Shown: positions 15,947 to 41,131 of the stretch, piece by piece
Layout of the letters: every line of letters starts with the position of its first letter
Position numbering within the stretch: position 1 is the stretch's first letter
Origin: Gammaproteobacteria bacterium
GTDB lineage: Bacteria; Pseudomonadota; Gammaproteobacteria; Ga0077536
Assembly (NCBI GenBank): GCA_019747795.1
Contig: JAIEQK010000060.1
Location: 1-41,131, forward strand
Reading direction: 5' to 3'
DNA: 41,131 nucleotides
Made by a program: the position numbers and the translations under genes
The notes under the pieces: generated by a model
Seen by the model: only the letters and a program-made list of their open reading frames with translations
Told to the model about the DNA's origin: nothing
Database searches by the model: none

Positions 15947-16348
15947 ATGCGCAAGACGACATCCATCAACTACCGTAACGAGGCCGAACTCATCGCCCAC
16001 TGCCCGCTGGCCGCGGCAATGAAGTTGTTGGGCGGACGTTGGAAGCTCATGCTCCTGTGGTACATCGGGCACGGACAGAATCGCTACGGACGCCTGCGTG
16101 CGATCATTCCGCACATCAGCGAAAAGATGCTCTATCAGCAGCTGCGCGAACTGGAGCGCGACGGCCTGCTCGAGCGCAGGCAGGAAGGCACGGCAGTGAT
16201 CTACTCGCTGACCGCGCTGGCAGCGAGCGTGCAGCCAACCCTCGCGGCGCTCGCTGAATGGAGCGCCGAGCATCGCGTCGCGGACCGCTTAGCCGACTAC
16301 GACGTGCCTGCGGCCAAAGTCGCGCGGCGACGCGCGACGGGAACGTGA
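15947..16348 (+). CDS. HxlR family transcriptional regulator
   Basis: 133 residues. The family signature is complete: CPLAAAMKLLGGRWKLMLLWYIG (C25 and the GGKW-like helix), NRYGRLRAIIPHISEKMLYQQLRELERDGLLER (helix-turn-helix and wing) and VIYSLTALAASVQPTLAALAEW. C25 precedes the DNA-binding domain at the position of the redox-sensing cysteine in YodB/HypR-type members, so thiol or quinone sensing is possible. It is divergent from the SDR gene. Confidence 0.93.
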   Translation: MRKTTSINYRNEAELIAHCPLAAAMKLLGGRWKLMLLWYIGHGQNRYGRLRAIIPHISEKMLYQQLRELERDGLLERRQEGTAVIYSLTALAASVQPTLAALAEWSAEHRVADRLADYDVPAAKVARRRATGT

Positions 16349-35546: not shown

Positions 35547-37970
35547 TCACGCTCGCCGACGGCGCCGCATGGCCAGCGCGAGGAGCGTGAGCCCGCTCGC
35601 GAGCGCCGCGCCGCTCGGTGGCAGCGGCACCGGCGCGGGCGTGCCGCCGGTGCGCGTCACGACCTGCAGAACAAGGCGCTGCGCGTCGGGCGCGCGCAGC
35701 TGGAAGGTCTTGTCCTTCCAGGCGGGGAGCACGACGCTCGCGAAGGCGCCGAGGATGCCGCCGTCGGCGGCCAGGAACTCGTACTCGCGACCGAGCGCGG
35801 CGTCGAAGCCGTCCACCAGCTGCACGACCAGACGGCCGCCCAGGCTCGCGGTACCGCCCTCGACACGCAGCACGTCGAAGTCCTCCGCGCTGCCGAACTC
35901 GATGACGAGCGTCGCGTCAGCGCCCTGCACGTAGTCGCCAACGATGGTGGTGGTGCCTGGCGAGTGGCCGGGCGCGAGGGTGCCGCCGAGGTTGGTCAGC
36001 GTGCCTTCGAAGCGGTCCACCTGCAGCTGGCCGCCGGTGAAGGCGAAGGCGCCGCCCAGCAGCGTGATGCGCGCCGCGTCGAGCAGCCCGTCCTGCAGCT
36101 CTAAGCGCCCGTCACGCTGCACCGACAGCGCGCCGTGCACCACCAGCTTCGCCTTGTCGCCGGTCAGTGCCAGCGTGCCGGCGCGCACGCGCAGATCGCC
36201 CGCGAGATCGCTCGCGCCGTTCAGACCGAGCGTCCTGCGGCCCAGCTTGGTGACGCGCCCCGCGCCCTCCAGGCGACCGCCGAAGCTGCCGTCGGCGACG
36301 TCGCTGCCGATGCCGAGCGCGGCATCGGCGCGCACGCGCCCGCGACCGGTGAGCGTCGCGAGATCCTCGCCGTCGCCCGCGATGCGCAGCGTGGCGCCCT
36401 GGTCCACCTGTACCGGTGTGTCGTTGCCGAGATTGTCACCGTTGCCGCCGACTTCGAGCGTGCCGGTGGCCACGCGCAGCGGCCCGCGAAACGCGTTGCG
36501 CCCATTCAGCGTCTGGGTGCCGAGCCCCGCCTTGGTGAGCCCGCCGTCGCCGATCAGGTTGCCGCTGAAGGTGTCGTCCTGGTTGCCGAGCCCGAGGGTG
36601 AGCGAGTGCTTGAGGGCCACGACGCCCGCGCCGCGCAGTCCGCCCACGACCTCGCCGTCACCTTCGACCGCCAGTTGGCCGTTGCTGCCGACTTCGAGCG
36701 TAGCGGTGTCAAGCAGGTTGTCGCCGCTGCCCAGCGTCACCGTGCCGCGCGTGACCCGCAGGCCACCGGCGAAGCTGTTCGTGCCGTCCAGGCGCAGGCT
36801 GCCTGCGCCTGTCTTCTCCAGGCGGCCGCTGCCGCTGATCGCACCGCCGAGCACGGCATTGCCGCCGTTGCCGCCGATGACCGCGTCCGCGTTCAGCACC
36901 ACGTCGCCGGCGCCGTCCAGCAGGCCGAGCGTCTCGCCGTTGCCGCCGATCACGAGGCGCGCGCCCGCCGCGACCTCGACTCGAGCGGCGTCGTTCAGCG
37001 CGTCGCTGTCGCCGGCTATTTCGAGCGTACCGGCGGTGACCTTGGTCAGACCGATGAAGGCCGCGTTGTTGCCGGTCAGGCGCATGAGGCCGCTGCCGCG
37101 CTTCTCGAAGGTGCCGCTGCCGACCAGCGCGCCGGTGAACTCGTCCAGCGCATTGTTGGCGTCGCCGGTCTGCAGCAGCCCGAGGCCGATGCGCATCTGG
37201 CCCCCGCCCGCCAGGCCACCGATGGCCTCAGTGGTGTTGAAGAGATCGACGACAGCGGAGTTGGACACGATCCTGATGGTGGTGGCGGAGCTGACCGCAT
37301 CGACGTCGCCGAACATGAGCGTGCCGCCGTGCACGACCAGGTCGCCGGTCTGCTGCGAGCCGTCGCCGCCAAGGAAGACCAGTCCGCCACCTTCGCCGTT
37401 GATGCAGCCCGGCACCTTGCAGCCGCCGGTGTTGGGCGGGAAGTCATTGATGCGCAGGTCGAAGTCACCGCTGCGCCGTCCGAGCACCACCAGTGTGCGG
37501 CTGGTACGCCAGGACTGCTCGGCCGTGAGCCGAATCTTCATGCGCAAGGTGAGCGTCTCGTGGGTGTTGGTGAAAATGCCCTCAGCGCCGACCGAGAGCG
37601 TCGAGTCGCTGCTGCTGAAGATGTCGTAGGCCTCGGTGTTGCCATCCGTGGAGTAGAAGCCGAGGCCGGCGACGCTCCAGTCCTCGTTCATGTCCGGATT
37701 GGGTTCGGACAGCGCGAACGCGTTGGCGCTGAACAGCACCTGGGTCTCGACCAGGTCCTTGGGCGGGCGCTCGCCGTCTTTCCAGTTGTCGCGGTTGGTC
37801 CAGTTGTCGGTCAGCCCGAGACCGCTCCACTCGTACTTGGTGACCGCATGTGCGTCGAGGGCGGCGAGGCTCAGGCCCAGGAGCCACGCGCCGCCCACCG
37901 CCCGCGCGGAGGCGCGCCCCCTGCCTGTTGTGCGTGCATGCCGAACGGCCATTTCGATCAACTTCTCCAT
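35547..37970 (-). CDS. PEP-CTERM-type protein with autotransporter beta-strand repeats
   Basis: 807 residues from ATG 37970; ATG 37952, with GGAGA ahead, is a credible alternative. A signal peptide ends near LAALDAHA. The body is glycine-rich parallel beta-helix sequence with at least four autotransporter-associated repeats of the GSGxLxKxGxGxLxLxGxNxFxGxLxVxxGTLxVG form (for example GSGRLEKTGAGSLRLDGTN, GDGGLTKAGLGTQTLNGRN, GAGRVTKLGRRTLGLNGAS). No outer-membrane barrel is present. The C-terminus is VPLPPSGAALASGLTLLALAMRRRRRA-like: a VPxP motif, a transmembrane stretch and an Arg cluster, the PEP-CTERM/exosortase signal. It is therefore likely sorted by exosortase to the surface matrix. Confidence 0.85.
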   Translation of the reverse strand: MEKLIEMAVRHARTTGRGRASARAVGGAWLLGLSLAALDAHAVTKYEWSGLGLTDNWTNRDNWKDGERPPKDLVETQVLFSANAFALSEPNPDMNEDWSVAGLGFYSTDGNTEAYDIFSSSDSTLSVGAEGIFTNTHETLTLRMKIRLTAEQSWRTSRTLVVLGRRSGDFDLRINDFPPNTGGCKVPGCINGEGGGLVFLGGDGSQQTGDLVVHGGTLMFGDVDAVSSATTIRIVSNSAVVDLFNTTEAIGGLAGGGQMRIGLGLLQTGDANNALDEFTGALVGSGTFEKRGSGLMRLTGNNAAFIGLTKVTAGTLEIAGDSDALNDAARVEVAAGARLVIGGNGETLGLLDGAGDVVLNADAVIGGNGGNAVLGGAISGSGRLEKTGAGSLRLDGTNSFAGGLRVTRGTVTLGSGDNLLDTATLEVGSNGQLAVEGDGEVVGGLRGAGVVALKHSLTLGLGNQDDTFSGNLIGDGGLTKAGLGTQTLNGRNAFRGPLRVATGTLEVGGNGDNLGNDTPVQVDQGATLRIAGDGEDLATLTGRGRVRADAALGIGSDVADGSFGGRLEGAGRVTKLGRRTLGLNGASDLAGDLRVRAGTLALTGDKAKLVVHGALSVQRDGRLELQDGLLDAARITLLGGAFAFTGGQLQVDRFEGTLTNLGGTLAPGHSPGTTTIVGDYVQGADATLVIEFGSAEDFDVLRVEGGTASLGGRLVVQLVDGFDAALGREYEFLAADGGILGAFASVVLPAWKDKTFQLRAPDAQRLVLQVVTRTGGTPAPVPLPPSGAALASGLTLLALAMRRRRRA

Positions 37971-38038
37971 TGCGCCACGACCACCGTGCGCGAGGGCGTG
38001 ATCCTTGGCGTTCGCACGCGCGGACACAATCCGCTAAA

Positions 38039-38071
38039 GGTCCTAGGACCTCGCCCCAGGGTCTTAGGACC
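38039..38071. promoter_or_regulatory. Paired 12-bp palindromes upstream of the PEP-CTERM gene
   Basis: GGTCCTAGGACC (38039-38050), a perfect palindrome, and GGTCTTAGGACC (38060-38071), with one change, have centres 21 bp apart, two helical turns. They lie 69 bp upstream of the PEP-CTERM start and the second overlaps the stop of the XRE regulator. Same-face spacing suggests cooperative binding of a dimeric regulator, perhaps that XRE protein. Confidence 0.45.
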
Positions 38072-38843
38072 GCGGCGGCTGACGGAGCGCGCGGCTCGGC
38101 GCGCGCGGACCGCGGCGGCGAATGTCGTCGTAGATCGAGAAGTTCCATGGCCGAAATGCGATCAGGAAGCCGACATGCTGACGCTGCGCGGCCGGCACGC
38201 CGCGATCGCGTTTCAGCAGGTCGCGAAACGTCACCGCGACGCGCTCGACGGCCGCCACCAGGTCGTCGCGGCCGCGTTCGCTCAGGAAGCCATGCAGGAA
38301 CACGCGGCTGCGGCCGGCGTCGCGAAAGTCGCCGGCGAGGAATTCGTCGGCGATCAGGTTCTCGAAGAAGCGCTCTATGGGTCCACCAGGACGCCAGCGA
38401 AAGCTGTCCGAGACCTTGATGCGGTAGCGGTTGCCGGGCAGGAGTTCGATGAAGCGGATCTTGTCCAGCGCGGCAAGGTGGCGAATGCAGTCGGTGGGGG
38501 CCAGCGCGTAGATGTCTAGGATCTCCTCGAAGGACCAGCGGTTCAGCACGCAGGCCGCGACCAGCAGGCGCTTCGGGTCCTGCACCAGCTGGCGCTCCTG
38601 CGCCTCGGTGAGCTGATCGAGACGCTGCTCCTCGCGCGCGTGCTTCTCCACCAGTTCGGCGAGATCGACCTTCAGGATGTCGCAGATCGCGTCGACCCGG
38701 CCCAGCGTCATGCGGTTCAGCGCGAACATGCGCTTCACCGCGCCTTCGGACAGGCCGAGCTTGGTCGCGAGGTCACGGTAGGTGATGCGGCGCGCGCGCA
38801 TCTCGCGCTTCAAGGCGTCCACCAGCTCCACGGCCTTGGGCAT
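38064..38843 (-). CDS. XRE-type helix-turn-helix regulator
   Basis: 259 residues, with GGAGGGG before the ATG. The N-terminal lambda-repressor-like domain has ITYRDLATKLGLSEGAVKRMFALNRMTLGRVDAICDIL (about 20-58). The C-terminal half is a helical domain of unknown type with SFEEILDIYALAPTDCIRHLAALDKIRFIELLPGNRYRIKVSDSFRWRPGGPIERFFENLIADEF, a pattern common in XRE-family regulators near membrane or lipid genes. It reads towards the PEP-CTERM gene and diverges from the small membrane protein and hydroxylase-GH3 genes. It may control either. Confidence 0.82.
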   Translation of the reverse strand: MPKAVELVDALKREMRARRITYRDLATKLGLSEGAVKRMFALNRMTLGRVDAICDILKVDLAELVEKHAREEQRLDQLTEAQERQLVQDPKRLLVAACVLNRWSFEEILDIYALAPTDCIRHLAALDKIRFIELLPGNRYRIKVSDSFRWRPGGPIERFFENLIADEFLAGDFRDAGRSRVFLHGFLSERGRDDLVAAVERVAVTFRDLLKRDRGVPAAQRQHVGFLIAFRPWNFSIYDDIRRRGPRAPSRALRQPPRS

Positions 38844-38909
38844 GGGTCCCCTCCAGGGTCATAAAAACTAGACTCATGGACGATTCTATTCCGACTTTGT
38901 CTAGCAAGC

Positions 38910-38968: not shown

Positions 38969-39430
38969 ATGCCAACCACCCTGTCCCCGTCCCTTGCCCC
39001 GTCGGCGGGCCGTCGCGCCCGGCCGCACGCCGTCCTGCTCGCCGCCTGCACCGTGCTGTTCGGCCTGCGGGTCTTCGCGCAGGCCGTGCAGTACGTGCAG
39101 CCCTCGCCCTACCTGCCGCCGTTCGAGGCGTTCCAGGGCAGCGCTCTGCCCTACGCGCTGCTGCTGCCGGCCCAGGTGCTGATCCTGAGCGTGATGATCC
39201 GCGCCACCGTGTCGGTGGCGCAGGCGCGTCAAGGCCCTCGACCGGCACGCGGCCGCCTGCTCGCCAGGCTCGGCGCGCTGTATCTAGCCGCGGCGCTGCT
39301 GCGCATCGCGCTCGGGCTCGCGCTGCCGGAGCTCGGCGCTTGGTTCCGCGCCTGGATCCCGGCCGTCCTGCACGTGGTGCTCGCCGCCTTCGTCCTGCTG
39401 CTCGCCGACCGTCATCTGCGGTCTGCCTGA
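38969..39430 (+). CDS. Small membrane protein before the hydroxylase-GH3 gene
   Basis: 153 residues from ATG 38969; the frame extends upstream into the promoter region. Four hydrophobic segments: AVLLAACTVLFGLRVFAQAV, LPYALLLPAQVLILSVMI, LARLGALYLAAALLRIALGLALP and WIPAVLHVVLAAFVLLLAD. No family recognised. It ends 22 bp before the fused hydroxylase-GH3 gene, so the two are probably one operon, and it may be its membrane partner. Confidence 0.72.
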   Translation: MPTTLSPSLAPSAGRRARPHAVLLAACTVLFGLRVFAQAVQYVQPSPYLPPFEAFQGSALPYALLLPAQVLILSVMIRATVSVAQARQGPRPARGRLLARLGALYLAAALLRIALGLALPELGAWFRAWIPAVLHVVLAAFVLLLADRHLRSA

Positions 39431-39452: not shown

Positions 39453-41131
39453 ATGCTGAAGCTCACGCACTATCTCTGGTACCCGTTCCTGCTCGCCAAT
39501 GCCGTGCTGTTGTTCGTGGCGCTGCGCGCTTCGAACGCGACGCTGGTGCCGGCGACCTATGCGCCGATCCTGCTGACCGGACTCGCGCTGGCGGCGCTCG
39601 AGCGCGCGCGACCGGCGCGCCTTGCCTGGCGGCCGCCGACCATCGAACTCAAGCGCGACCTGCTCTACATGCTGCTGGTGCAGGTACTGCTGCCGCGCGC
39701 GCTGATGCTCGCCACCGTCATGCTGCTCACGCGTGGCGGCGTGGGCCTCGGTGATGCCGGGCCTTGGCCCCGGCACTGGCCCTACGTCACGCAGGTCTTG
39801 ATCCTGCTGGTGGTGGCGGACTTCCTGCGCTACTGGCTGCACCGCGCGTCGCACCGCTGGGCGCCGCTGTGGCGCCTGCACGAGGCACACCACGCGCCCG
39901 ATAGGCTGTATGCGCTCAACGTCGGCCGCTTCCATCCCCTGGAGAAGATCCTGCAGTTCGGCGTCGATTCCCTGCCCTTCGTGCTGCTCGGTGCGACGCC
40001 CGAAGTGATTGCGGGTTACTACCTGCTGTACGCGGTCAACGGCCAGTGCCAGCACGCCAACGTGCGCCTGCGCTACGGCTGGATGAACTACCTGGTCGGG
40101 AGCGCTGAGACCCATCGCTGGCATCACGTCAGGGACGAGGCCTGCGGTCCGTGCAACTTCGGCGCGACGCTCATCGTGTGGGACCTGCTGTTCGGCACGT
40201 TCCACCTGCCTCGCCGTCAGCCGCGCGCGGTGGGCATCCTCGATTCTTCCTATCCGCCGGGCTTCGTCATGCAATTGCTAAGGCCCTTTCTCGCGACCCT
40301 GACGCAGGGCGCGACCGGCGCCGCGCTGCTCAAGCTGAGCTTGCGCGCCGCCTTCTATCGCGAGGTCCTGCGGCTCGGCCGGCATACGGCCGATCCCATG
40401 GCGCGGCAGCGCGCACTGTTGGCGCGCGTCCTGCGCGACAACCGCGACACCGTCTACGGGCGCGCCCATGGTTTCGCCGACATCCGCGACTACCAGGACT
40501 TCGTCGGGCGTGTGCCGATCAACGACTACGAGGCCCTGCGTCCCTATGTCGAGCGCGAGATGGCGAGCGGCGAGGCGACCCTCACCGCCGAGCGTCCGCT
40601 GCGCTTCGTCGCGACCAGCGGCACCACCGGCGCGCCCAAGCACATTCCGGTCACCCGCGCCGTGGAACGACACCTGGCGCGCATGCAGCGCCTGGCCGCG
40701 GCGCTGCAGTTCCGCGCCTGTCCGCACGCCTTCGATGGCGCGATCCTCGCCATCGCCGGGAGCGCGGAGGAAACCCGCAGCGCGGACGGGCGCAGTATCG
40801 GCGCGGCGTCCGGGCTGCTCGCCGGCCAGGTGCCGGCCCTGCTGCGCGAGCGCTTCGTGCTGCCGCCGGGCGTGGCAAGCGTCCCTGACGCAACCCTCAA
40901 GTACCTGCTGGTGTTGCGCCTCGCCCTCGCGCGCCCGGACATCAGCCTGTGCGCGACCGCCAATGTCAGCACCTTGCTGACGCTGCTTCGTCTCCATGCC
41001 GTACACCACGACGCGCTGGTCGAGGATCTGCGCGTGGGCGGCTTTCATCGCGCGGCCGAACTGCCGGCGGCGCTGCGCGCCGAACTCGCGCCGCGGCTGG
41101 TGGCGATGCCGGCGCGCGCGGCGGCGCTCGC
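39453..41131 (+). CDS. Fatty acid hydroxylase - GH3 acyl-adenylase fusion, 3' truncated
   Basis: The frame is open from ATG 39453 (GGAGA upstream) to the window edge, 559 residues so far. Residues about 1-265 are a sterol-desaturase/fatty-acid-hydroxylase domain with HRASH (130-134), HEAHH (143-147) and HRWHH (221-225), plus two to four membrane helices. After a short linker, residues from about 290 form a GH3-type adenylating domain: HTADPMARQRALLARVLRDN, VPINDYEALRPYVEREMAS and the ATP loop ATSGTTGAPKHIPVT (T388 to K396). I checked the join codon by codon; no stop or frame change separates the halves. GH3 enzymes adenylate and conjugate carboxylic acids. The C-terminal end is outside the window. 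Confidence 0.85.
   Translation, partial: MLKLTHYLWYPFLLANAVLLFVALRASNATLVPATYAPILLTGLALAALERARPARLAWRPPTIELKRDLLYMLLVQVLLPRALMLATVMLLTRGGVGLGDAGPWPRHWPYVTQVLILLVVADFLRYWLHRASHRWAPLWRLHEAHHAPDRLYALNVGRFHPLEKILQFGVDSLPFVLLGATPEVIAGYYLLYAVNGQCQHANVRLRYGWMNYLVGSAETHRWHHVRDEACGPCNFGATLIVWDLLFGTFHLPRRQPRAVGILDSSYPPGFVMQLLRPFLATLTQGATGAALLKLSLRAAFYREVLRLGRHTADPMARQRALLARVLRDNRDTVYGRAHGFADIRDYQDFVGRVPINDYEALRPYVEREMASGEATLTAERPLRFVATSGTTGAPKHIPVTRAVERHLARMQRLAAALQFRACPHAFDGAILAIAGSAEETRSADGRSIGAASGLLAGQVPALLRERFVLPPGVASVPDATLKYLLVLRLALARPDISLCATANVSTLLTLLRLHAVHHDALVEDLRVGGFHRAAELPAALRAELAPRLVAMPARAAAL

Follow-up and report, generated by a model that had tools for sequence, protein, structure and literature searches.

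A membrane hydroxylase fused to a GH3 domain in a recurrent bacterial operon with a possible role in amino-lipid synthesis

OlsE hydroxylates the ornithine moiety of the finished ornithine lipid (PMC3972451). OlsH forms N-acyl-ornithine from a free fatty acid and ornithine with ATP and Mg2+, and only a very weak signal was obtained when hydroxypalmitate was offered (PMC12493201). Its ATP motif I reads T114SGTTQGATK, in which S115 is essential, as seen from the S115A result; the authors expect other amino acids to be the substrates of other bacterial GH3s, and note that jasmonate is among the oxidised acids conjugated by the plant GH3s (PMC12493201). A GH3 role in bacterial lipid synthesis was assigned only in 2025 with the characterization of OlsH, so that the original prediction, which called bacterial GH3 proteins poorly studied, now holds only in part. 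In the locus described here, a GH3 domain is physically joined to a hydroxylase of the type that decorates amino lipids, and the fusion is accompanied by a third enzyme with an active site unlike those of its known relatives.

Frame, domains and motifs of the fusion

The window, which is the whole stretch of DNA analysed (41,131 nucleotides), is the entire contig C302 of a 5.9-Mb draft gammaproteobacterial genome. The features of its 3' part are as follows.

38064-38843, minus strand: HTH_26 regulator (Pfam PF13443, 43.1 bits), transcribed away from the operon
38969-39430, plus strand: membrane protein of 153 residues, matching no family in the Pfam scan, with homologues upstream of the fusion at other loci
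39453-41131, plus strand: 5' part of the fusion gene, an open frame aligning over its full length with six other fused proteins
39798-40199, plus strand: FA_hydroxylase domain (PF04116, residues 116-249; 107 bits, cut-off 31)
40300-40376, plus strand: approximate interdomain join, a variable and gapped region when fused and split homologues are aligned
40377-41129, plus strand: GH3 N-terminal domain (PF03321, residues 309-559; 147.5 bits, cut-off 23.6)
40614-40640, plus strand: GH3 ATP motif I, TSGTTGAPK (T388-K396), located by alignment

The frame from 39453 to 41129 comprises 559 codons and is open at the contig end, with about 850 codons expected. It had been predicted that a single frame joins a complete three-His-cluster hydroxylase to a GH3 domain with an intact ATP loop, and each part of this was borne out. 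Both Pfam domains scored above their cut-offs, no stop interrupts the frame at the join, all three His boxes are present (H130/H134, H143/H146/H147 and H221/H224/H225), and TSGTTGAPK was read within the window, with ATP motifs II and III falling past the contig end. The GH3 match is incomplete at the contig end and spans model positions 6-258 of 304. In the alignment, S389 of the fusion corresponds to the essential S115 of OlsH. Third-position GC across the join stayed at 0.85-0.90 throughout (overlapping 60-codon windows). AlphaFold2 applied to the window protein alone gave no usable model (mean pLDDT 38).

The nearest NCBIfam models with a real match were OlsE for the hydroxylase half and OlsH for the GH3 half. 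With the OlsE model (NF052566, cut-off 475), the window protein scored 147.6 bits and the fused homologues scanned scored 160-206 bits. With the OlsH model (NF052613, cut-off 620), the incomplete window protein scored 62.5 bits and the complete fused homologues scored 97, 110 and 136 bits. These values are far below the curated cut-offs, ruling out membership in OlsE or OlsH proper and suggesting that the chemistry or the substrate may differ.

Two further genes of the window are recorded here. A second, unfused FA_hydroxylase protein (L011; 25762-26613, minus strand, 99.7 bits) is placed far from the hydroxylase of the fusion in the tree, and an 826-residue protein with autotransporter-type PATR repeats (35547-38027, minus strand) has a C-terminus resembling a PEP-CTERM sorting signal.

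Recurrence, gene order and the missing 3' end

A search for the same two-domain chain in other genomes had been proposed as a check. In about 1,270 genome searches, with some genomes repeated and all from one phylum, the fusion was found in six other genomes: G337 (locus L038), G714 (L087), G971 (L110), G854 (L111), G849 (L112) and G1092 (L113), whose proteins share 39-54% identity with the window protein. G355 (L039) and G817 (L114) have the two halves as adjacent genes with a 4-base overlap, and G867 (L115) retains a decayed remnant with stops. The fused protein of L110 (8024-10540), otherwise intact, has Asn in place of the first His of the third box (NRWHH). The two loci with separate halves could be taken to favour a frameshift, a chimeric assembly or the chance joining of neighbouring genes in the window. 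However, the fused frame occurs in six other genomes from six other families, and the codon composition is continuous across the join. The chance of such an artefact is negligible, and in practice the six further fused genes rule it out; the hydroxylase-GH3 fusion is genuine and belongs to a conserved operon.

The ten carrier genomes, including that of the window, represent ten different families of one class. In the family of the window, only its own genome among 36 had a GH3 match above the cut-off, and in the order of G337 the fusion was present in one of 20 genomes. This patchy distribution suggests horizontal transfer. In trees of each half, the nine intact sequences grouped together to the exclusion of all others (support 0.87), and the split pairs branched from within the fused sequences, suggesting either that a fused ancestral gene was split or that fusion occurred more than once. 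A stand-alone hydroxylase from another class of the same phylum (G701; L088:9107-10240, minus strand) is sister to the hydroxylase of the fusion, with 45-46% identity and no GH3 neighbour in the stretch read, and may show the pre-fusion state.

The order of membrane protein, hydroxylase plus GH3 and enolase-superfamily protein was found at L038, L110, L111, L112 and L114. At these five loci, homologues of the 153-residue membrane protein (33-53% identity) are encoded immediately upstream of the fusion or of its split halves. At L087 the homologue lies one gene further upstream, with an extra S15-type hydrolase inserted in the operon; at L113, where the contig begins, only the end of the gene is present; and in the L039 stretch no homologue was found. 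The inserted gene at L087 (10105-11886, minus strand), between the membrane-protein and fusion genes at that locus only, encodes an S15/PepX_C protein with an apparent signal peptide. In the window, 22 bases separate the end of the membrane-protein gene from the start of the fusion gene; the start of the former was chosen by us, and a longer frame of 184 residues begins at 38876. About four transmembrane segments are predicted by a hydropathy estimate. The original prediction took this protein for a partner of the fusion, which agrees with the position of its homologues, and its picture is extended by a third partner, the enolase-superfamily protein, which lies beyond the window and hence was not visible there. 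The HTH_26 gene is a possible local regulator of the operon; none was seen beside the other loci.

To find the missing 3' end, we used the C-terminal portion of a complete homologue as the query against this genome. It matched the minus strand of contig C194 at its very end (positions 16027-16155 of 16159), with 44% identity and E = 3.9e-5. Read in reverse, C194 opens with the final 53 codons of a gene for a GH3 protein, ending ...GQREAQFKLVCLDYRARFDFDLDACVAPEVGA-stop, and there follow two enolase-superfamily genes, with 46% and 43% identity to the L038 protein; the start of the first of them overlaps this stop (ATGA). From the gene content and the same gene order in relatives, we infer that C302 and C194 adjoin, with a gap of about 233 codons (roughly 700 bp) by homologue length. 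The middle and C-terminal domains of GH3 (PF03321/PF23571/PF23572), together with motifs II and III, were found in the fused protein of L038 and could be recognised in the other complete homologues, as a motif-II-like G-Y-(L/I/V)-(A/S)-S-E and a motif-III-like GLYRYF(M/I)ND; L113 departs slightly (GFLASE and GLYRYDIND).

Other searches gave the following results. A pattern scan of the genome contigs with the window protein found nothing, and a scan with alignment A2 returned five GH3s, the best of which (L050) has no hydroxylase frame beside it. No match was obtained in the plasmid DNA search, and in the plasmid protein search no record had one place covering 80% of the fused query, each of the matches listed being to either half alone. 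Other bacterial GH3 genes reside in different operons: those of L040, L041 and L043 have a GNAT-like protein and a large transporter-like membrane protein alongside, and that of L092 adjoins a pair of radical-SAM-like proteins (both by eye).

The enolase-superfamily protein

The protein encoded downstream of the fusion matches MR_MLE_C, and its best matches among solved structures are dipeptide epimerases. Besides matching the dipeptide epimerase/N-acylamino acid racemase branch (3jva, 1jpm) in sequence, it shares with that branch KxK and the D/E/D ligands of the metal. The racemases of this group work with two lysines as a pair (PMC8142540). When ten enolase-like sequences were aligned, two of them from the genome of the window, nine retained KxK and all ten retained the residues that match D191, E219 and D244, the metal ligands of 1jpm, with changed neighbours in the second copy of this genome. 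All ten have Arg at the position of K268 of 1jpm, which was located by counting residues in the printed 1jpm alignment. The DxD motif of dipeptide epimerases (D321-F-D323 in 1jpm), which we take to be the motif for the dipeptide ammonium, is likewise absent from all ten, being aligned with QEG, or with SEG in L110.

Since the lysine pair is incomplete and DxD is lost, the downstream protein is probably not a racemase, and both changes speak against its identity as a racemase or dipeptide epimerase. The missing DxD, expected for a charged dipeptide, suits an N-acyl substrate. We infer from the alignment a one-base enzyme whose substrate would be a carboxylate with an uncharged N-acyl group.

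The second copy on C194 (L049:13554-14660, minus strand) no longer has the second of the two KxK lysines, and residues near its DAN, DES and SKMGG motifs are changed as well. It is possibly a catalytically dead partner of the first.

Proposed pathway and comparison with known systems

We put at about even (a probability near 0.5) the reading in which the product of the operon is a modified N-acyl amino acid (a lyso-amino lipid or something related), arising by amide formation followed by hydroxylation, on predicted substrates. The GH3 half would use ATP to adenylate a carboxylic acid, fatty or similar, and transfer the activated acid to the amine of an amino acid or a similar compound, giving an amide. 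The hydroxylase half, of the di-iron membrane type and in the same chain, would then hydroxylate this product at the membrane, most likely in the amino-acid part as OlsE does and less likely in the acyl chain. The enolase-superfamily protein would take the alpha-proton beside the free carboxylate of the conjugate by means of one lysine (of KxK) and a metal; as Arg occupies the position of the second lysine, racemisation would be less likely than a one-base reaction, for example an elimination. The small membrane protein probably serves as an accessory subunit.

This reading is supported by the nearest named models, OlsE and OlsH, both amino-lipid enzymes, and by the resemblance of the downstream protein to enzymes with amide-linked amino acid substrates. 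The conservation of the fusion in seven genomes of seven families, with adjacent split genes in two more and exclusive clades, is consistent with it, as are the intact motifs, the alignment of plant amido synthetases over the whole GH3 region, and C194, which gives the end of the gene and two enolase-superfamily genes in the genome of the window. Counted against it are the low scores of both halves with the OlsE and OlsH models, the OlsF-like/OlsE-like locus of the same genome, the Asn in box 3 of L110, the join of C302 and C194, which is deduced, and the role of the enolase-like protein, which is read from alignment.

Members of the FA_hydroxylase family act on varied lipid substrates, and the fusion runs from hydroxylase to GH3; both would suit a route in which the hydroxylase half first makes a hydroxylated fatty or terpenoid acid and the GH3 half then activates and conjugates it. 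The conjugation of oxidised acids such as jasmonate by plant GH3s would also fit (PMC12493201). However, domain order is uninformative on the order of reactions, the target of OlsE is the ornithine part of an already made lipid (PMC3972451), and hydroxypalmitate is a very poor substrate of OlsH (PMC12493201). We therefore regard this route as unlikely, if still worth serious consideration, and the original prediction, which had a lipid or terpenoid acid hydroxylated and then activated, finds no support in these two enzymes. An ester, a thioester or another conjugate lacking an amino acid, or a non-fatty acid activated for a specialised metabolite, with the enolase-like protein acting on an unrelated carboxylate, would accord with the low OlsE and OlsH scores, with a patchy distribution typical of accessory metabolism and with the S15-type hydrolase of one cluster. 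Such products seem rather improbable, since the GH3s of known activity (the plant GH3s and OlsH) form amides and the enolase-like protein most closely resembles enzymes acting on amide-linked amino acids.

OlsE and OlsH as the nearest named families might also point to a second ornithine-lipid synthase and hydroxylase, redundant with an OlsF-like route. Contig C301 of the same genome, however, already carries, close together, genes for an OlsF-like protein (386 bits, cut-off 620) and an OlsE-like protein (295 bits, cut-off 475), through which ordinary ornithine lipid is probably made, and this OlsE-like gene belongs to a different clade from the hydroxylase of the fusion. The pair suggests that ornithine itself may not be the amine used by the fusion. 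The scores far below the cut-offs and the conserved third enzyme, which is not found in known ornithine-lipid pathways, also argue against redundancy, which we consider very unlikely. Ornithine-lipid synthesis is unlikely as the sole role of the fusion, which likely serves a different product.

Returning to amide formation followed by hydroxylation, we hold as a tentative proposal, somewhat short of even odds, that the operon represents a new amino-lipid or N-acyl-amino-acid pathway, in which one membrane polypeptide forms the amide and oxidises the product and a dedicated Arg-variant enolase-superfamily enzyme with one lysine acts at the alpha-carbon, giving an undescribed hydroxylated or dehydro lipid. 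Such a compact route of three genes, carried in ten bacterial families, would lead to a predicted lipid or conjugate that is as yet undescribed. In full-text searches of a collection with a minority of the subscription journals and no bioRxiv preprints, neither a hydroxylase-GH3 fusion nor such an operon was found described, and the OlsH paper alone was relevant to the architecture. This agrees with the original statement that no described enzyme of this architecture was known to its author. The component families are known. What appears to be new is their combination, the conservation of that combination and the enolase partner with its Arg variant.

Among the known systems, the plant GH3 acyl-acid amido synthetases (JAR1, 4epl; GH3.15, 6avh) align with the fusion profile across the whole GH3 region (E = 2e-37 for 4epl), but they are single-function, soluble, hormone-acting enzymes without a hydroxylase domain. 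OlsE shares the FA_hydroxylase family and the three His boxes, and its model is matched over nearly its whole length by the hydroxylase half of the fusion, although this half scores far under the cut-off and is joined to GH3. OlsH (Singulisphaera acidiphila Sinac_1599, a lyso-ornithine lipid synthetase) resembles the fusion in the GH3 fold family, in the TSGTT motif I with the essential Ser, in the motif-II-like and motif-III-like stretches of the complete homologues and in its lipid context, whereas only the fusion is joined to a hydroxylase. In S. acidiphila, the operon includes the O-acyltransferase OlsI, an alpha/beta hydrolase; no gene of this kind was seen in the conserved core of the fusion operon, the S15-type alpha/beta hydrolase being confined to L087, and an enolase-superfamily protein is the neighbour there.
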